From positions 1 to 37,564 of the forward strand of contig NZ_QGGO01000002.1 of assembly GCF_003148625.1 (NCBI RefSeq): a DNA stretch of 37,564 nt, written 5' to 3'. This DNA is from Arcicella aurantiaca (GTDB taxonomy: Bacteria; Bacteroidota; Bacteroidia; Cytophagales; Spirosomataceae). Below, in pieces: positions 28,846 to 36,626 of this stretch. The notes beneath the pieces were generated by a model. The model worked only from the letters and a program-made list of their open reading frames with translations, had not been told where the DNA came from and ran no database searches. The translations under genes were made by a program, and so were the position numbers. Positions within the stretch are counted from its first letter, which is position 1, and the number at the start of each line of letters is the position of its first letter.

Positions 28846-31800
28846 ATGAAACTCATCAAACAATCAACATTATTCTTCAAAGAAGGCAATTCAGACAAAG
28901 TTTATGAAATAGACCTATGCGAAATCGGCAGTGGACAATATGTCGTTAATTTTCGATACGGAAAGCGGGGAAGCACCTTAAAAGAAGGAACAAAAACAGA
29001 TAAACCTATCAGTCAGAGTGCTGCTGAACAAGTTTTTGACTCTCTGGAAGCCGAAAAACGTAAAAAAGGGTATCAATCTGAGCAAGAAATGTTTCAGCAA
29101 ATGCCTGATTTACCCGAAGAATCTTCTTCCACAAATCCAATCGAAAAAGCAATTCTGAAACGTTTAAAAGGGTTGATTGATGGACAAAATCCATTTAAAA
29201 CCGAATGGAAACCTTCACGAGTTATCTGGCGTGCAGGAGAACTAAAACTAAAAGCTGCCGTTCCCTATATTATTCGACTTACCGATAGAGGCGACGAAAT
29301 GCAACGATATTCTGCTCTTTGGGCATTAGGACGAATTGGCGACATTTCAGCAGAACGCACGTTAAATGTGTATTTTTCTAATCAAAAATATACTGAAAAA
29401 ACCCGTAGAATTGCAGGGGAAGGCTTAATTCAAATTTTATCAGAAAATGCTCTTCAAGACCACTTAAATACGTACTTAAATCGCTTACCCGAAGACCTAA
29501 AAAATGCTCTTTCAAGTGCTGATGAAATACGAAGTATTTTACAGAATAAAATATTTATCAACCCTGTTGGAGAATATGATTTTTTAGCAAACTTATACAC
29601 ATTATCTATTAATAATCAGGCACTTAAAAAAGAGTTAATAAGTGTTTTGAAAGAAATTCCTTTGAAGGCAGGGTTTTTCAAACCAATCCGACATATTCTA
29701 AAAATTGCTGAGTTACGAGATGATTTTGAGATATTGGGTTTATTGTCTTATCGTTTTGAAAGAACCCTTGAAATGTTTAAAAAACCTGTCATTCATTCAT
29801 GGGAATCTGAAGATGATGGACGAGAAAAAAGTGCGTATATTCAAACCATTGGTCAGTCAATAAAAGTTACATCTGAACTAAAAAAGAAAAATAGCAAAAT
29901 TGCTTATTCTGATAAAACAAGAGCCTATTTAATCCGAAGAACACTTCGACAATTGAAAGAATTAGGGCAAGAAGAGAAAACGGAGTATGTAAAACTGGCT
30001 CTTTCTATTCTGCTTTCGTACAATGCTAAAAAAGACTACAAAGCCCCATACTCAACAACCGAATATAACTATACTAATGGATGGACTACCTTTCAAAAGG
30101 AATACCCTGCCTATTCTGATGCAGTTTTGATGAATCTTATTTTATTTGGTGGTGGAGATAGTTTGACTTTTTATGACAATAAATGGCATAAAACTAATCG
30201 AAATATTACAGTCACAAGTCAAACGACAAATACTCATTATACTCCAAATACTATCACAAACACTACTCAACAAAGTAGTGAGGGAGGCGTATTAAATCGT
30301 GTTTTTGACTCGGTATTCTCCTTGTTTTCCAAACCTAAACAACAAGAAATTACCAACCCCGAGCCAGCAACTCCTCCGATTGAAGTAACTACTCAACCAC
30401 AAGAAGTCATTACACCTGCTCAGAAAAGAGAGGAATTATATCCAGCCTTATGGGATAAAGTACCACAGGCATATTTGCAACTTTTACTAAAAGCAAAAGT
30501 TGACGAAATACACGAGTTCGCTTATAAAAACTTAACGTCACATTCTGATTACCAACAGATTAAAGCAAAAATTGATTTTCCTTTAATGCTTCAATTATTG
30601 GCATCTGAATATTTGATTGCAACACGGTTTGGCTTGGAATTAATCAAAGAAAAGCTAACTAATAATCCAGATAAAACAATTACAATTGCCCTGTTGAATA
30701 GTCCTTTGTGGGAAGCAAGACAGTTCGGTTTAGAAATCATCCAAAAAGACATTAATGGATATTTGGGGGAATCGTCATTTGTTACAAATTTACTTTTTTC
30801 AAAATATGGAGAAGTAAGACAGTGGACTATGAAGATTCTCAACGAACGCCCTCTCAACGAAACCCAACAACAACTTTTGGTAGGACGAAGCATTGCATTA
30901 TTGGCAACGTACCAACAAAATACAGAAGAAGATAATCTTACTATTAAAGACGCCACTAATATTTTACTCAGAAATTGTTCGGAAGCACTCCTCAATATTA
31001 ATAATCAAGTAATGCTTGATTTATTGAATTCGCCGATGGAATCAATCCAAGTTTTTGCAGTTAAAATTATCATTCTCAAAAACGCTCAACCTACCGCTGA
31101 AATCCTGTGTTCGTTGTTGTCAAGTAAGTTTGAACAAGTCAGAAAAACAGGTGCTGAACTATTAACAGAATTAAAAAGTCGTATTGATACTGATACAAAT
31201 TATGCTACACAATTAGTTAATTATCTTGTACCATTATTGATGCGGAAAGAACCCTACGAAGGGCTGCATCAAGATGTTTCCAATATTCTGGGAAATCAAT
31301 TAATGGGGCATCTTCAATCCATAGACACCAATACAAGCATTCGATTGATTCATTCAAATTATAGTCCCGCCCAAGACTTGGGATTGGTGTTATTAAACAA
31401 CTACATCAACACGAACAACCTTACTATCAGGCAAATCGTAAGCATTGGCAACCATGAACAATTGGTTTATCGTCAGTGGTGCTGGGCATATTTTCAAAAA
31501 GATATAGCAAGAATTAAATACGAAAGAGACGAATCTATACGACTCTTAGATGCCAAGTGGGACGATAGTCGAGCATTTGCCATCAACTATTTTAGAGATA
31601 CTTTTGAAGTACACGATTGGACACCCGAGGTTTTAGTTAGCATTGCAGATTCCGTCCGACCAGATATTGAAGCCTTTGGGCGTGAACTGATTAGCCGCTT
31701 TTTTGAAGAAGGGCAAGGCGAAGAATATCTGCTAAAACTGAGCCAACACCCAAGCGTTGGTGTGCAGTTATTTGCCACTAATTATTTAGAAAGATTTGCT

Positions 31801-32085
31801 TCTGATAATCCTGAAAAATTAAAATCCATTACTTTTTATTTCCGTTCGGTTCTTACAAGGGTCAATAAAGGACGAAGTGCAAAATCACGAGTTTTTTCAT
31901 TTTTGCACCAAGAAGCACTCAAATCTGCTGATTCAGCTTTGGCAGTAGCCGATATTTTACGAGATGTCTCTGCAACGGCTTCTATTGAAGACAAGGCTAC
32001 TTGTATTACCATGATGAGAAACCTTCAAGAACAATTTGAAAATTTACATTTACCCTTGAAAGTGGTAGATTTTGAAACACGATAA
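28846..32085 (+). CDS. WGR-HEAT/ARM repeat protein of the retron operon
   Basis: Protein of 1079 residues. Residues 1-80 form a WGR domain (FFKEGNSDKVYEIDL, VNFRYGKRGSTLKEG, AAEQVFDSLEAEKRKKGY), with YGKRG in place of the usual WGR core. The rest is a long alpha-solenoid of HEAT/ARM repeats, visible from about residue 120 (VPYIIRLTDRGDEMQRYSALWALGRIGD) and again from about 590 to 1060 (VRQWTMKIL, QVFAVKIIILKNAQPTAEI, VRKTGAELL, VGVQLFATNYLERFA). A proline/glutamine-rich linker lies near 490-530. WGR domains often bind DNA ends or nucleotides. The gene opens an operon with a membrane protein, a SWIM protein and a retron RT. To my recollection, WGR/ARM and WH-SWIM proteins are the partners of type XIII retrons. 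Enzyme motifs are absent. Confidence 0.8.
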   Translation: MKLIKQSTLFFKEGNSDKVYEIDLCEIGSGQYVVNFRYGKRGSTLKEGTKTDKPISQSAAEQVFDSLEAEKRKKGYQSEQEMFQQMPDLPEESSSTNPIEKAILKRLKGLIDGQNPFKTEWKPSRVIWRAGELKLKAAVPYIIRLTDRGDEMQRYSALWALGRIGDISAERTLNVYFSNQKYTEKTRRIAGEGLIQILSENALQDHLNTYLNRLPEDLKNALSSADEIRSILQNKIFINPVGEYDFLANLYTLSINNQALKKELISVLKEIPLKAGFFKPIRHILKIAELRDDFEILGLLSYRFERTLEMFKKPVIHSWESEDDGREKSAYIQTIGQSIKVTSELKKKNSKIAYSDKTRAYLIRRTLRQLKELGQEEKTEYVKLALSILLSYNAKKDYKAPYSTTEYNYTNGWTTFQKEYPAYSDAVLMNLILFGGGDSLTFYDNKWHKTNRNITVTSQTTNTHYTPNTITNTTQQSSEGGVLNRVFDSVFSLFSKPKQQEITNPEPATPPIEVTTQPQEVITPAQKREELYPALWDKVPQAYLQLLLKAKVDEIHEFAYKNLTSHSDYQQIKAKIDFPLMLQLLASEYLIATRFGLELIKEKLTNNPDKTITIALLNSPLWEARQFGLEIIQKDINGYLGESSFVTNLLFSKYGEVRQWTMKILNERPLNETQQQLLVGRSIALLATYQQNTEEDNLTIKDATNILLRNCSEALLNINNQVMLDLLNSPMESIQVFAVKIIILKNAQPTAEILCSLLSSKFEQVRKTGAELLTELKSRIDTDTNYATQLVNYLVPLLMRKEPYEGLHQDVSNILGNQLMGHLQSIDTNTSIRLIHSNYSPAQDLGLVLLNNYINTNNLTIRQIVSIGNHEQLVYRQWCWAYFQKDIARIKYERDESIRLLDAKWDDSRAFAINYFRDTFEVHDWTPEVLVSIADSVRPDIEAFGRELISRFFEEGQGEEYLLKLSQHPSVGVQLFATNYLERFASDNPEKLKSITFYFRSVLTRVNKGRSAKSRVFSFLHQEALKSADSALAVADILRDVSATASIEDKATCITMMRNLQEQFENLHLPLKVVDFETR

Positions 32086-32096
32086 AACACCTTATT

Positions 32097-32843
32097 ATGC
32101 ACATTTTTTGGGTAATTTTTGCAGAATGTCTATTGGCATTAATTGATTTTCTAACCATGAAATTTATTGAAACCCGTGGTTTTAGAGTAATTGGTATAAA
32201 ATATGGCTTCAAACCTGTTTTGTACGACAAAACGATAAACAATTTTCAGTTTACATTAGGTATTATTCCCTTTTTCGGCGGATTGGCTTCTTATGAATCG
32301 AATGTCAAAAAATATACGCCTAAATTTTTAAGTCCCATAGCCTATGCTTTTCTATGTGAATTGGGGTTTCCATTTTTACTGATTTTGACATTGATGATTT
32401 TCATAGTTCTTTCCATTTGTGGTTTAGAAACAACACGCATTGTATTACAACTCATTTTTACAATGAATATTAATTTAGTCGATTGGGTTTTATTATTCAA
32501 CAAGTTAGACAACTTAGACCCAATAGTCAGAATGCCTATCTCAATTTCAATTTATGTCACCATTTTTTATTTATACGCTGGAATATTGAGACAGTTGGTA
32601 TATATTATTTTGGAAAAAGTCCTTAAAATCACCTCAGATGCAACCCAATATGTTGTTACAACAATTCTTTTATCCATCTTAATCAACAACATTCCAGACG
32701 CATTTTACGGGCATTTGCTAAATTTTAGTACATTTTCCCCTTTTATGCTTTTAGATTGGCTTATTGGTCACTGCATTTTTATTACAATTGTTGGTTTAAT
32801 CATTGAAGTAATCGCTCGAAAACAACAAGAAACTCACTTATAA
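32097..32843 (+). CDS. Polytopic membrane protein between the two retron partners
   Basis: Protein of 248 residues of unknown family. Hydrophobic segments at about residues 3-20 (IFWVIFAECLLALIDFLTM), 50-65, 80-113 (two tight segments, FLLILTLMIFIVLSICG), 115-135, 150-175 (ISIYVTIFYLYAGILRQLVYIIL), 183-200 and 215-240 (MLLDWLIGHCIFITIVGLIIEVI) suggest 6-8 membrane passes. No catalytic motif is recognised. Its start is 11 bp after the WGR/HEAT stop and the next gene begins 10 bp after its own stop, so it is translated as part of the operon. It is a candidate membrane-damaging effector or membrane anchor. It could also be an unrelated inner-membrane protein, but the tight spacing argues against that. 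Confidence 0.7.
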   Translation: MHIFWVIFAECLLALIDFLTMKFIETRGFRVIGIKYGFKPVLYDKTINNFQFTLGIIPFFGGLASYESNVKKYTPKFLSPIAYAFLCELGFPFLLILTLMIFIVLSICGLETTRIVLQLIFTMNINLVDWVLLFNKLDNLDPIVRMPISISIYVTIFYLYAGILRQLVYIILEKVLKITSDATQYVVTTILLSILINNIPDAFYGHLLNFSTFSPFMLLDWLIGHCIFITIVGLIIEVIARKQQETHL

Positions 32844-32853
32844 TCAATACCAA

Positions 32854-34497
32854 ATGCTATTTAACTATAAATACGGTGGCACTTCATCGGTTACAAGCAA
32901 TGCCAATTCGGTGGGAATGTCTTTTGCCCCAGATACACTTCGAGAGCCTACCTTTTTCGTGGGGAAACTGCATAAAAAACTTGCCTTTCGTGAAGCAATG
33001 TCTGCCTTGCACGATGTTGTAGTTTCGGATATGCGGTTTAAGCCTAAGGATAAATCCATGTACAAAGAATGGGCTGCTCAACAAGAAAAAGTATGGTTAT
33101 CTGAATATTTGGAAGAATTGGATATTCAAAACGTCAAAGACCGAATGAGTCTGATTCGTGATGAATTACAAGGCATTTATAAAGAGAAAGACCGTATTTT
33201 AAGTCCTTATTATACTGCTCGTAAAAAATACTTCGACTATCTATATCAAAAAGATAGAGATACGTGGTTTGTTTTAGACCCTGTGATTACGGTACATCCC
33301 GACGAAGTATTTTTTGAGTGTTTTAGTCAAGATGAATCTTCTTACGGTAAATTGGAGTCTAACTATAATGTTTTTAAGCAAATAAATGAGTTTGAATGTG
33401 GCACAACCAACATTGATTATTCTTCTGATTTATATAATGAATTTCAAAAAATAAGAGATTATAAAGAAACCGATTTCAAGATTGACCCCAGTGGTTTTTC
33501 CGTAAAAACTACCAATGAAGATGAATACAAAGAAGTAAAAATTGATTTGCCCGACAGTTGGGTTCGTGGTTTTTTACAGGTAAGTTCAGCCATGACCTTG
33601 CCTACCACCAGCTTTGACTTGCACCCAATGGATATTTACAATATCTGTTTATTATTGCGAAGATTCAAGGAAAAAGAAGGTCCCCGTTCTATCAAGTTTA
33701 TTTTGAAACCTAACCAACCTATCACTTTACTTTTTGAGCCATTCAATAAAGAAATAGTATGTGCAAGGTCAATTTTTCAAGGAAATGAAGCTAAAACAAT
33801 CAGAATTTGGGGCAGACGACGGCTATTAATTTTGGAACGACTCATTCCCGTAGCCAAGAAATTTACGGTACATCTTACAGGTTCGGGTTTACCATCATTT
33901 TACGTAGCAGATTTGGGCGATATGACCTTCACACTCGGGCTTTCGGGCTGGTCAGCCAATGACTGGTCGAGGTCAGGAAATTTTGATTTAATGGCTCCAC
34001 GAGCTGATGTTGACGGTTTTACAGCTCAAAATATTTATAATGCTCTTCGAGAAAATTGGTTTGAAAAACCAGAATCACTCGCCAAACGATTAAATACAGA
34101 TACAAAAACCGTTTTAGGAGCATTAGGCACATTTACACAAGCAGGCAAAACAATTTACGACTTAAATAAAGGCGTTTATAGAATTCGAGAACTATCCAGA
34201 GAGACACTACCCATTCATAAATTACGCTTTGACAATCCGAGAGAAGAATCAGCCACCGCTTTAGTAAATGATAAAAAAGTAAATTTAACAGCAGAAAAAA
34301 TAAGTAATGGCTTACGATTATCAGGAACGGTGAAACAATCAAATCGAATTTTTAACCCAACTGTTGTCATAGATAATGACGAAAGAATAGCACAAGCCTC
34401 CTGCGATTGCGATTTTTATGTTCACAATAAACTATTCAAAGGACCTTGTGAGCATATCATTGCATTGAGAATTGAACATCGAGAGAGAAATCCATGA
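32854..34497 (+). CDS. Winged-helix/SWIM zinc-finger protein of the retron operon
   Basis: Protein of 547 residues. Its central part is a helical and beta region without a recognised enzyme fold. At about 389-447 a winged-helix-like segment is seen (TAQNIYNALRENWFEKPESLAKRLNTDTKTVLGALG, then AGKTIYDLNKGVYRIREL). At the end is a SWIM zinc finger, C517-x-C519 ... C532-x-H534 within SCDCDFYVHNKLFKGPCEHI, fitting CxCxnCxH. SWIM domains bind nucleic acids or proteins. The gene is 10 bp after the membrane protein gene and its stop is 41 bp before the retron RNA. It matches the WHSWIM partner that I recall for type XIII retrons. Confidence 0.8.
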   Translation: MLFNYKYGGTSSVTSNANSVGMSFAPDTLREPTFFVGKLHKKLAFREAMSALHDVVVSDMRFKPKDKSMYKEWAAQQEKVWLSEYLEELDIQNVKDRMSLIRDELQGIYKEKDRILSPYYTARKKYFDYLYQKDRDTWFVLDPVITVHPDEVFFECFSQDESSYGKLESNYNVFKQINEFECGTTNIDYSSDLYNEFQKIRDYKETDFKIDPSGFSVKTTNEDEYKEVKIDLPDSWVRGFLQVSSAMTLPTTSFDLHPMDIYNICLLLRRFKEKEGPRSIKFILKPNQPITLLFEPFNKEIVCARSIFQGNEAKTIRIWGRRRLLILERLIPVAKKFTVHLTGSGLPSFYVADLGDMTFTLGLSGWSANDWSRSGNFDLMAPRADVDGFTAQNIYNALRENWFEKPESLAKRLNTDTKTVLGALGTFTQAGKTIYDLNKGVYRIRELSRETLPIHKLRFDNPREESATALVNDKKVNLTAEKISNGLRLSGTVKQSNRIFNPTVVIDNDERIAQASCDCDFYVHNKLFKGPCEHIIALRIEHRERNP

Positions 34498-34503
34498 GTT
34501 TAA

Positions 34504-34533
34504 TTTGTTAAATCTATTTATTCAATTAATTTG
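34504..34533 (+). promoter_or_regulatory. Candidate promoter of the retron RNA
   Basis: TTTG (34504-34507), an 18-bp spacer and TTAATTTG (34526-34533) fit the Bacteroidota TTTG / TAnnTTTG promoter with one mismatch. The predicted start point falls about 5-7 bp later, at 34538-34540, exactly where the a1 arm of the retron RNA begins. It would let the RNA be made apart from the operon message. Confidence 0.5.
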
Positions 34534-34537
34534 CATC

Positions 34538-34771
34538 AGCAAAGAGAAAAACACAAAGACCTTGCATTCCGAAAGGAAAGAACGATGTTTCGTCGTTCGT
34601 GAAACATGACTACACAAGCATCACTAATTCAATCTTTACTGTGAGGGCAAGTTACCAGTACGCACTTTTACAGTAAAATCTCCGAGAAATTAAAAGTGCG
34701 TACTGGTAACGCCCTCTTGGAGTTGATTGATTTAGTCCTGAGTATCTTCGAAGGTGTTTTTTCTCTTTGCT
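34538..34771 (+). ncRNA. Retron msr-msd RNA
   Basis: A 234-nt RNA between the SWIM gene and the RT. Arm a1 (34538-34554) and arm a2 (34754-34771) pair over 17 bp with one bulged base. The msr part has a GNRA hairpin (ttcc-gaaa-ggaa, 34567-34578) and a 7-bp hairpin (atgtttc / gaaacat, 34585-34591 / 34601-34607). The msd part is a hairpin with a perfect 20-bp stem (34651-34670 / 34691-34710), 20-nt loop, extended by 6 bp (gagggc 34643-34648 / gccctc 34711-34716) after a 2-nt bulge. The RT should copy the msd into cDNA. The branching G is not clear: the familiar AGC is at 34538-34540, within a1 rather than after it, so its position is uncertain. Confidence 0.85.
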
Positions 34772-34814
34772 AACCTTTTGCTTTAATCGGCAAAAGGCTA
34801 AAAATTAAGTTCCT

Positions 34815-36326
34815 ATGTCAGAACGCCTCAGTCGCCAACAACTCTACGACCGTATTCGTGAAACCTCAAAAGACGAATATATTCTTTCCGAAATGAAAAA
34901 ATTAGGCTTTTGGAAGTCTAATGAAACAGAACCCCAAATTTCAGAACAGCTCATTCAACGTGAAGGTGATTTACACCGTGAGCTTAACGACCTTTCCCAG
35001 CAACAACGTCGTTATGATAATCAGCAAGCGATGATTGCCGATATGCGAAAATCTCGGATGGAAGCATCCAAGAAAAAGCAACTCGAAACCAAGCAAAGAA
35101 ATCAACAAAAACGAATTGAAAAAGCCGAAAAATGGAAGACTCAACAGCAAAATTCCATTGTATATCTTGGAGAAGAAGTTTCGGGCGGATTAAATAGTAC
35201 ACAAACGGATATTGCTAAACTGAACAGTTTTGGATTACCACACTTTACCGATGTTTTAGCGTTGGCACAAGCCATGAAATTAACCTTAGGACGACTTCGT
35301 TTTTTGGCTTATAACCGTAAAGTTTCAACGGTGTCTCATTATAAAAGATTTTATTTACCCAAAAAATCAGGAGGGAAACGGTTGATTTCAGCACCAATGC
35401 CCATGCTTAAAGATGCCCAATACTGGATTTTAGAACATATTTTATATAAAGTATCTCCTACCGATTTGGCACATGGTTTTGTTCCAAATCGGTCTATTAT
35501 GACCAATGCACAAAAACACATTGGACAAGATGTAGTCATAAATCTTGATTTGAAAGATTTTTTTCCAACGATTGATTATAAACGAGTGAAGGGCTTATTC
35601 AACAAATTTGGTTATTCCGAACAAATTGCCACCATTTTGGCACTGATTTGTTCAGAACCTGATGTAGAATTACTGGAGATAGACGGAAAGCAATATTACA
35701 CGGCAAAGTCTGAACGTAAACTTCCACAGGGAGCTCCAACCAGTCCAGCCATTACCAACTTAATTTGCTATCGTTTAGATTGTCGTTTTGAGGGAATCGC
35801 TAAAAAATTCGGATTTCAATACAGTCGCTATGCCGACGACTTAACGTTTTCTGCCAAAGGCGAAGGGAAAAAATTAGTTGGACAGTTATTATGGTCAGTC
35901 AAGCAAGTAATTACCAATGAAGGATTTACACTACATCCAGATAAAATTGCCGTTATGCGTAAAGGCTCTCAACAAAAAGTTACGGGTATCGTGGTCAATG
36001 ACAAAGCAGGAATTGACCATAAAGAACTGCACAAATTCAGAGCCTTGATTCATCAAATTGGGAAAACAGGAATCGCAGGAAAGACTTGGCGACAAGGTGT
36101 AAATTTAGAAAATTCAATGCGTGGATACGCAGAGTTTGTATCAATGGTAAAACCCGAACAAGGACAAAAATTCAAAATAGCACTGGATAAAGTTTTTGGC
36201 GTAAAAGTAAAATCAGACAAACAAGATATTCCACAAAATCCGATAATTGAAAATAAACTACCCGAAGAAAAGCCCAAGAATATAAACAAAAATGAAGATG
36301 GGAAATCTTGGTGGGAAGTGATTTAA
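34815..36326 (+). CDS. Retron reverse transcriptase
   Basis: Protein of 503 residues. The retron marks are all present: NAQKH (231-235, NAxxH), catalytic DLKDFF (245-250), LPQGAPTSP (303-311), YADD (339-342) and VTG (389-391). It makes cDNA from the msd RNA, usually priming on the 2'-OH of a G in the msr. Residues 1-135 are an unusual extension with a Gln/Lys/Arg-rich coiled coil (about 50-112), and after about 470 a charged tail ends GKSWWEVI. A hairpin (ccttttgc / gcaaaagg, 34774-34797) lies between the RNA and the ATG at 34815. It ends an operon with WGR/HEAT, membrane and WH-SWIM genes; a tRNA gene follows. Confidence 0.95.
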   Translation: MSERLSRQQLYDRIRETSKDEYILSEMKKLGFWKSNETEPQISEQLIQREGDLHRELNDLSQQQRRYDNQQAMIADMRKSRMEASKKKQLETKQRNQQKRIEKAEKWKTQQQNSIVYLGEEVSGGLNSTQTDIAKLNSFGLPHFTDVLALAQAMKLTLGRLRFLAYNRKVSTVSHYKRFYLPKKSGGKRLISAPMPMLKDAQYWILEHILYKVSPTDLAHGFVPNRSIMTNAQKHIGQDVVINLDLKDFFPTIDYKRVKGLFNKFGYSEQIATILALICSEPDVELLEIDGKQYYTAKSERKLPQGAPTSPAITNLICYRLDCRFEGIAKKFGFQYSRYADDLTFSAKGEGKKLVGQLLWSVKQVITNEGFTLHPDKIAVMRKGSQQKVTGIVVNDKAGIDHKELHKFRALIHQIGKTGIAGKTWRQGVNLENSMRGYAEFVSMVKPEQGQKFKIALDKVFGVKVKSDKQDIPQNPIIENKLPEEKPKNINKNEDGKSWWEVI

Positions 36327-36330
36327 ATTA

Positions 36331-36373
36331 AAAATGCTCTAATTTTCAAAATTCATGAAAATTAGAGCATTTT
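36331..36373. terminator. Intrinsic terminator between the RT and tRNA-Arg
   Basis: Arms of 17 bp (36331-36347 and 36357-36373) pair perfectly around a 9-nt loop. On the minus strand TTTTTAATTT follows, so it ends the tRNA transcript; on the plus strand it also closes the retron operon 5 bp after the RT stop. Confidence 0.85.
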
Positions 36374-36379
36374 ACATTG

Positions 36380-36451
36380 TAGCCTCGAAAGGAATCGAAC
36401 CTTCATCTTAGGTACCGGAAACCCACATTCTATCCATTGAACTACGAAGCC
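36380..36451 (-). tRNA. tRNA-Arg (anticodon CCG)
   Basis: 72-nt cloverleaf on the minus strand: acceptor GGCTTCG with CGAGGCT, D arm GTTC / GAAT, anticodon stem TGGGT / ACCTA with loop TTCCGGT (anticodon CCG, reading CGG), variable AGAT, T arm GAAGG-TTCGATT-CCTTT. CCA is not encoded at the 3' end (the sequence is ...GGCTACA). It lies between the retron and the RluA gene and may be an integration hot spot for the defence island. Confidence 0.9.
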
Positions 36452-36462
36452 AGCTACTAAAT

Positions 36463-36626
36463 GAAGCCCTTTTAGAATAGATTTTGACAAATTTACTTCG
36501 TCTTATTTTGATTAACAAAATCCTATTTTTCACAAAAGATACGCTGTATATTCCTTAAAAAAATACGATTCTGCTAATCAAAAAACACAAATCAACTTTA
36601 TTCAAAATCTATTCTAAAAGGGCTTC
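36463..36626. repeat. 164-bp element bounded by 25-bp perfect inverted repeats
   Basis: The 25 bp at 36463-36487 (starting gaagcccttttag) are perfectly complementary to 36602-36626. The inner 114 bp have a smaller inverted repeat (ttttgatta / taatcaaaa). It starts 11 bp outside the tRNA gene and ends 8 bp before the rlu stop, so it fills the gap. No target duplication is evident. It could be a MITE-like element or a long terminator hairpin between tRNA and rlu. Confidence 0.85.

Follow-up and report, generated by a model that had tools for sequence, protein, structure and literature searches.

A type XIII retron operon in Arcicella aurantiaca, with an added membrane-protein gene and a SWIM partner predicted to contain a PCNA-like clamp fold

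The genome of Arcicella aurantiaca carries what is almost certainly a complete type XIII retron. The operon lies at positions 28846-36326 of a 37,564-nucleotide stretch of contig NZ_QGGO01000002.1 (the window, here always at its full length). The open reading frame (ORF) list places its five elements on the plus strand: genes encoding a WGR/HEAT protein, a membrane protein, and a SWIM protein, separated by gaps of 11 and 10 bp, followed by a 317-nt interval that contains the retron RNA and by the gene encoding the reverse transcriptase (RT). The original prediction had described this layout and had proposed type XIII, and both proposals are borne out. By each testable feature, i.e., RT motifs, RT clade, WGR/HEAT and SWIM partners, and adjacent RNA, the sequence identifies the operon as type XIII, and it is probably an anti-phage system. 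The class itself is already known and was reportedly set out by Mestre et al. in 2020. The window shares with the class the RT, the WGR/HEAT and SWIM partners, and the RNA in one cluster; it differs by adding the membrane gene between the WGR/HEAT and SWIM genes. Structure prediction indicates that the SWIM protein very probably has a PCNA-like clamp fold.

The PADLOC retron models match three of the four proteins (WGR_XIII, SWIM_XIII, and RT_XIII; Table 1), with the runner-up RT model, RT_other, at 317 bits; the membrane ORF has no PADLOC match. The Pfam domains WGR (30.6 bits), HEAT_2 (31.9), SWIM (27.2), and RVT_1 (92.2) all score above their cut-offs. In the WGR/HEAT protein, WGR occupies residues 13-80, and a HEAT match at 125-167 is accompanied by weaker ones. 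The four ORFs are all intact over their full length. The RT motifs noted at the outset are located at N231, A232, and H235 (NAxxH), residues 339-342 (YADD), and residues 389-391 (VTG). Across seven type XIII RTs, N231, A232, H235, Y339, D341, D342, and V389-T390-G391 are invariant, and V replaces the A of YADD in two. The closest solved relatives of the window RT are retron RTs, with that of retron Ec86 (Eco1) first (E 7e-45, over window residues 134-415). Compared with that of Ec86, a type II-A retron, the window RT is longer by about 130 residues at its N terminus and has a tail ending in a Trp-Trp (WW) motif; we take the Ec86 RNA to be similar in layout and its effector to be different. In a tree of 90 RTs, which takes in RT_XIII-like sequences only, the window RT groups with those of loci L217 and L032, then with Emticicia (L035, L221), and then with Runella (L031, L224). 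The 80 RT relatives retained from viral contigs share 27-40% identity with it.

The retron RNA, predicted earlier with a1/a2 arms and a long msd hairpin, is real, judging by sequence, because its fold is far more stable than chance (z -10.07; 0 of 100 shuffles equally stable), double-sided changes occur at 31 of 34 consensus pairs, and 87 of 97 sources give a match to a covariance model of it. The arms share a perfect core of 14 nt, and an inverted-repeat search recovers a perfect 20-bp msd hairpin (34651-34670 / 34691-34710). The candidate branching G, presumably 34564, is placed by likeness to Eco1. Of 96 RTs, 68 have the RNA upstream by a motif scan, and 52 of those 68 loci entered alignment A4. 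Its consensus comprises a short msr hairpin, a long-range helix, and the msd hairpin; each of the 31 pairs has at least one double-sided change, and no row departs from CTTGC, TCG, or CGAAG. The alignment is poor in the msd stem, where as many as 18 of the 52 rows break or gap some of the pairs. The a1 and a2 arms differ between loci, yet they pair with their own partners. Specifically, among the 63 loci (of 68) that have both arm regions, the mean a1:a2 duplex is -29.7 kcal/mol for own and -13.7 kcal/mol for foreign combinations; the own duplex exceeds the median foreign pairing in 63 of 63 loci and every foreign pairing in 31. The six weakest own-duplex ranks belong to RT-first loci.

The covariance model covers the msr part only (43 sequences; matches counted at E <= 0.01), and it recovers 44 of 54 sources outside its building set. 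The matches in L049 are weak (E 0.002-0.006). Five sources that it misses (L032, L043, L046, L061, and L216, with L032 and L216 a single locus) have contigs that start no more than 366 nt before the RT match. The other misses are L048, L059, and L088, which have no partners in the stretch examined, L063, in which the SWIM start is fused to the RT, and L029, which has the longest tree branch. At the Rfam 15 gathering score, the retron RNA is unmatched and only the tRNA is found in the window. Two or three RNA copies per locus occur in 6 of the 87 sources with matches (L041:149-899, L045:8264-8817, L049:7838-8527, L099:8352-8800, L103:1466-1898, and L094:6015 and 8641). In L041 there are three full copies, whose msd stems differ, and a fourth of which only the 3' end is present. 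In such loci, several branched DNAs may depend on a single RT. In cyanobacterial L098 and L105, the RT lies 2-4 kb further on, but the RNA has kept its place next to the SWIM gene. In these two loci, an RNase III-like gene sits directly upstream of the RT (L105:8232-8945, by Pfam; L098:8099-8785, by eye).

The WGR/HEAT and SWIM partners recur widely. Our inventory holds 86 RT_XIII-like loci, the best 80 from a genome scan and six others, and 72 have all three protein genes. The order is WGR-SWIM-RT in 60 of the 72 and RT-WGR-SWIM in 11; the last, L077, is WGR-SWIM-RT by its tblastn matches (automatic ordering gave another order). Among the remaining 14, the RT or operon lies near a contig or stretch end in eight (L025, L032, L041, L043, L046, L061, L062, and L103), and the other six lack a partner (L029, L048, L059, L063, L088, and L098). 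The RTs of L048, L059, and L088 are type XIII-like, and the stretch examined around each shows no match to WGR/HEAT, SWIM, or the RNA. Thus, with WGR/HEAT and SWIM kept in 72 of 86 loci, these two partners are conserved beside related RTs; the membrane gene, which the original prediction had counted among the operon's parts, is not. Type XIII loci are spread over Bacteroidota, Pseudomonadota, Cyanobacteriota, Myxococcota, Verrucomicrobiota, and other groups, and 12 of 222 genomes of the window's family, its own included, have a full SWIM_XIII gene. The class had been described as little characterized, which fits the literature searched: one paper there contains both "retron" and "type XIII", and its available text merely lists a PADLOC call in Variovorax (PMC11953036). 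In the available portions of that literature, PMC12548924, PMC8628076, and PMC11953036 among it, nothing links retrons to WGR/SWIM function or to a clamp; the "WGR" of PMC8628076 is the index wGRR.

Table 1. Features of the retron operon and its downstream edge, in window positions.
Feature	Position	Strand	Basis
WGR/HEAT protein, 1079 aa	28846..32085	+	PADLOC WGR_XIII 1116 bits; Pfam WGR and HEAT_2 above cut-off
Membrane protein, 248 aa, optional extra gene	32097..32843	+	ORF; about five hydrophobic segments
Clamp-like / winged-helix-like / SWIM protein, 547 aa	32854..34497	+	PADLOC SWIM_XIII 797 bits; Pfam SWIM
Predicted PCNA-like two-domain clamp fold, residues ~34-363	32953..33942	+	AlphaFold and Foldseek; limits read from secondary structure
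SWIM zinc finger, residues 503-538	34360..34467	+	Pfam PF04434
a1 arm of retron RNA	34538..34554	+	Pairs with a2
msr region	34559..34619	+	Invariant CTTGC 34561-34565; hairpin 34580-34598; covariance model R1
msd	34623..34736	+	Long-range helix 34623-34633 / 34726-34736 around 20-bp hairpin; double-sided covariation, inverted repeat
a2 arm of retron RNA	34754..34771	+	Pairs with a1
Retron reverse transcriptase, 503 aa	34815..36326	+	PADLOC RT_XIII 617 bits; Pfam RVT_1; RT tree
C-terminal RT tail GKSWWEVI	36300..36323	+	WW after residue 425 in 74/90 RTs
Hairpin, probable terminator shared by RT and tRNA	36326..36378		Arms 36326-36348 / 36356-36378, inverted repeat 91%
tRNA-Arg(CCG), edge of variable site	36379..36451	-	ARAGORN and Rfam; congeners

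A possible mode of action emerges from the predicted structure of the SWIM protein. The AlphaFold model, built from a 60-sequence alignment (predicted local distance difference test score, pLDDT, 78.5; predicted template-modeling score 0.68), contains the strand-helix order beta-alpha-beta(4-5)-alpha-beta(3) repeated twice, which we take to be the PCNA topology. Foldseek returned 467 Protein Data Bank (PDB) matches at E <= 0.001 (best E 9.1e-11), and all 50 of the matches listed are PCNA chains or PCNA complexes, at 7-14% identity. Template-modeling scores normalized by target are 0.61-0.79 in 49 of those 50, and 0.23 for a fused PCNA entry. Against viral models, 101 matches were obtained at E <= 0.001; among the 50 listed, 31 are named PCNA, clamp, or processivity factor, and the rest are unnamed or uncharacterized. 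Relative to PCNA, the window protein has a helical insert at ~68-133, and a helical winged-helix-like part and the SWIM finger are fused C-terminal of the clamp. Weak Pfam matches to winged-helix-like domains appear in a few of the 60 family members. In the finger, C517, C519, and C532 are invariant across the 60 sequences and H534 is at least 90% conserved; in the clamp region, the polar residues H148, E155, D160, E161, T184, N186, and R321-R323 are invariant.

Several points weigh against a clamp. The evidence for it comes from one model, in which pLDDT falls below 50 at residues 1-10, 25-28, 60-67, 134-140, and 367-375. Template-modeling scores normalized by query are 0.31-0.37 in the PDB matches listed, because the clamp covers only part of the protein. 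No clamp family appears among the first 25 of 68 Pfam families listed for the 60 SWIM proteins, and none in a profile search of PDB sequences. With no sequence match to a clamp family found, we do not class the protein as a PCNA family member.

The second structural clue is the RT tail. We surveyed tail hydropathy in 91 RTs (L061, L062, L226, L216, and L046, which are cut, duplicate, split, or fused, were left out) and used 90 for the tree and the WW count (L063 also left out). WW occurs beyond residue 425 in 74 of the 90 and within the first 425 residues in none, and a variable linker joins it to the RT core. Of 54 WW RTs with no transmembrane (TM)-like tail, 53 have three to five residues past WW and one has ten. 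An aromatic pair falls within the last eight residues of 63 of 91 RTs, four of them TM-tailed; the pair is WW in 54. Such a pair occurs in the same position in 3 of 86 SWIM and 0 of 82 WGR/HEAT proteins, and it is present in 6.3% of RT 8-mers overall. A TM-like tail is found in 22 of the 91 (L064, L072, L078, L080, L083, L091, L092, L096, L100, and L109 among them), all in a Pseudomonadota clade, where they make up 22 of 23 RTs and represent one change on the tree. WW is retained inside the linker in 20 of the 22. The chances are about even that WW is a partner-binding peptide; that it binds the clamp is a tentative suggestion. WW is absent from 16 of the 90 RTs, including all five cyanobacterial ones, and one weak SWIM column is tied to WW (47 WW versus 13 non-WW sequences), so that no co-variation is visible between tail and SWIM protein. 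These results, too, count against docking on the clamp. We tried the tail as a canonical PCNA-interacting peptide (PIP) box, whose consensus is Q-x-x-hydrophobic-x-x-aromatic-aromatic, and rejected it: N493 and G496 precede W499-W500, and only the aromatic pair fits.

The best overall explanation, toward which we lean slightly, is a type XIII retron whose DNA-acting partners are restrained by the RT and its branched multicopy single-stranded DNA (msDNA). The notion is that the RT would copy msd into msDNA and remain bound to it. The WGR/HEAT and SWIM proteins would form a DNA-acting pair, with WGR and SWIM contacting DNA, the clamp acting as a ring or tether, and HEAT as a scaffold. The RT-msDNA complex would join the pair through WW and keep it inactive. 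Phage damage to msDNA or to host DNA metabolism would release the pair, which would then seize DNA, stop replication, and kill the cell. The membrane protein would be an interchangeable addition, serving either to anchor the complex or as an effector that damages the membrane. This full chain of steps is improbable as it stands. Pfam and PADLOC reveal no catalytic domain in the WGR/HEAT or SWIM protein, which also weighs against it and makes the toxic step a guess. A bolder version, to which we give a modest chance, casts type XIII as clamp retrons. If so, the strongly conserved SWIM protein would be a PCNA-like clamp with winged helix and SWIM finger, RT-msDNA would dock by the conserved WW as a polymerase does on a clamp, infection would load clamp and WGR/HEAT on phage or host DNA, and extras (membrane protein, WGR-propeller, Fic) would tune the response.

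The membrane protein invites a different explanation. It has hydrophobic segments at 3-21, 89-107, 115-133, 154-172, and 222-240, and Pseudomonadota type XIII RTs may themselves sit at the membrane. The system could thus be tethered there, with the Trp-rich RT tail as a peripheral anchor and the membrane protein depolarizing the cell when RT-msDNA is disturbed. TM effectors occur in some retrons, such as Ec48. Consistent with tethering are the TM-like Pseudomonadota tails, tails that are basic-aromatic (e.g., KKPWWKFW), and the hydrophobic segments encoded by extra genes of the window, L031, L224, L045, L105, L056, and L215. However, other WW tails are acidic (e.g., DKPWWDVV), the internal WW of the TM-tailed RTs argues that WW was not simply swapped for a TM helix, and tblastn at E 1e-3 finds nothing like the membrane gene in the 86 related loci. 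We consider tethering unlikely. Similarly doubtful is the idea that the clamp-like domain is a scaffold for msDNA or noncoding RNA (ncRNA), neither encircling nor acting on phage DNA, with killing residing in an unrecognized part of WGR/HEAT. The persistence of RNA and SWIM gene together in L098 and L105 fits a scaffold, and the invariant polar clamp residues suggest a specialized binding or active site. Nonetheless, DNA contact is what the winged-helix-like (weak), SWIM, and WGR domains would lead one to expect.

Far less probable is a non-defensive role, for instance in DNA repair or gene regulation. Its basis is a set of shorter SWIM relatives (L203-L213; ~445 aa) that match SWIM_XIII at 177-194 bits, with the profile match starting near position 100, and that share a similar C-terminal Cys-rich finger with the longer window protein. 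Eight of the 11 (L204-L210 and L212) adjoin a gene of ~330-420 aa, and no RT was seen within ~1.5 kb on each side. A similar SWIM-partner pair may therefore have uses outside retrons, and this pair is possibly ancestral. Against such a role for the operon stand its four full-length ORFs, its variable tRNA site, and its conserved RNA pairing. The membrane protein is hardly likely to be a dead M50 protease-like sensor, an idea prompted by a Pfam M50 hit (E 0.0099) and rejected because it scores 15.7 bits against a cut-off of 27.2, the sequence lacks HExxH, Pfam matches nothing in the Runella relative at E <= 1, and the AlphaFold model is too poor to use (pLDDT 48.5).

Returning to the retron with restrained DNA-acting partners, the membrane gene is, by its distribution, an optional extra and not a standing part of type XIII. 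Likely relatives are found only in Runella sp. MFBS21 (L031/L225) and its congener G588 (L224). L031, one of the 86 loci, holds the weakly similar gene in the same slot, and in the window, L031, and G588 (3 of the 12 family genomes) a membrane gene of similar size lies just before SWIM. The window and Runella proteins share 26-27% identity (pairwise E 0.025), shuffled sequences reach their global score in 13-30 and their local score in 16-38 of 1000 trials, and among the 15 other hydrophobic ORFs compared, the two of the Runella kind rank first. These values are no more than suggestive of homology. Searches of plasmids, viral contigs, and 58 relatives found none outside the own genome. Across 390 genomes of the order, matches were the own genome, G588, and seven at E 0.001-0.006; six of the seven, inspected by eye, showed no similar ORF.

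Type XIII has optional accessory genes, because the extras vary among the family operons. A gene encoding WGR plus a beta-propeller lies inside the operon in 8 of the 12 family genomes; it is absent from the window operon, and none was found in the window's own genome. Its best PADLOC match is only 18.7 bits. Such genes were recognized beside the core genes by Pfam in L031, L035, and L056 and by BLAST elsewhere; by BLAST, they adjoin type XIII genes in three Myxococcota loci and L056. The Myxococcota operons L095, L102, and L107 open with this gene, 1 bp before WGR/HEAT. Other extras are a transglutaminase-like gene and a TPR gene (G400, operon split across contigs), a Fic gene and a 268-aa gene with no Pfam match (G427, operon cut by a contig end), and a TPR/DUF4034 gene in two Runella operons. 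No same-strand extra ORF of at least 90 aa lies inside the operons of G546, G544, and G551.

The surroundings suggest how the operon arrived. In congeners G398 and G399, a DNA-alkylation gene directly adjoins tRNA-Arg(CCG) and the site is empty, and in G398 a pseudouridine-synthase gene comes next, as in the window. The operon was probably gained at this site, because it fills the gap that is empty in those two genomes. G396 has ~9.5 kb at the site; by eye, one of the genes there looks like a tyrosine recombinase, and a search revealed no RT_XIII. The flanks are split between contigs in both G395 and G400. No attachment-site-like repeats were recognized at the insertion edges. Beside the tRNA, at 36463-36626, perfect 25-nt inverted repeats 114 nt apart resemble a miniature inverted-repeat transposable element, and by eye a similar stretch is present in G399 (L252) and not in G398 (L249). 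Elsewhere in the genome, a second retron-like RT (L227; C4:101107-101979; best PADLOC match RT-Protease_XI, 370 bits) adjoins a HisKin-conflict protein and an iREC/response-regulator protein.

Other retron classes have recognizable effectors, e.g., nucleases, TIR domains, and proteases. The type XIII partners have no enzyme domain by Pfam and PADLOC, and the clamp fold, if true, would give the class a testable mode of action. It would also mean that a defense system has copied the docking of a polymerase on its clamp. Finally, given that the RNA is unmatched in Rfam 15 and that the class is broadly spread, the RNA described here would aid annotation and supply new RT/ncRNA pairs.

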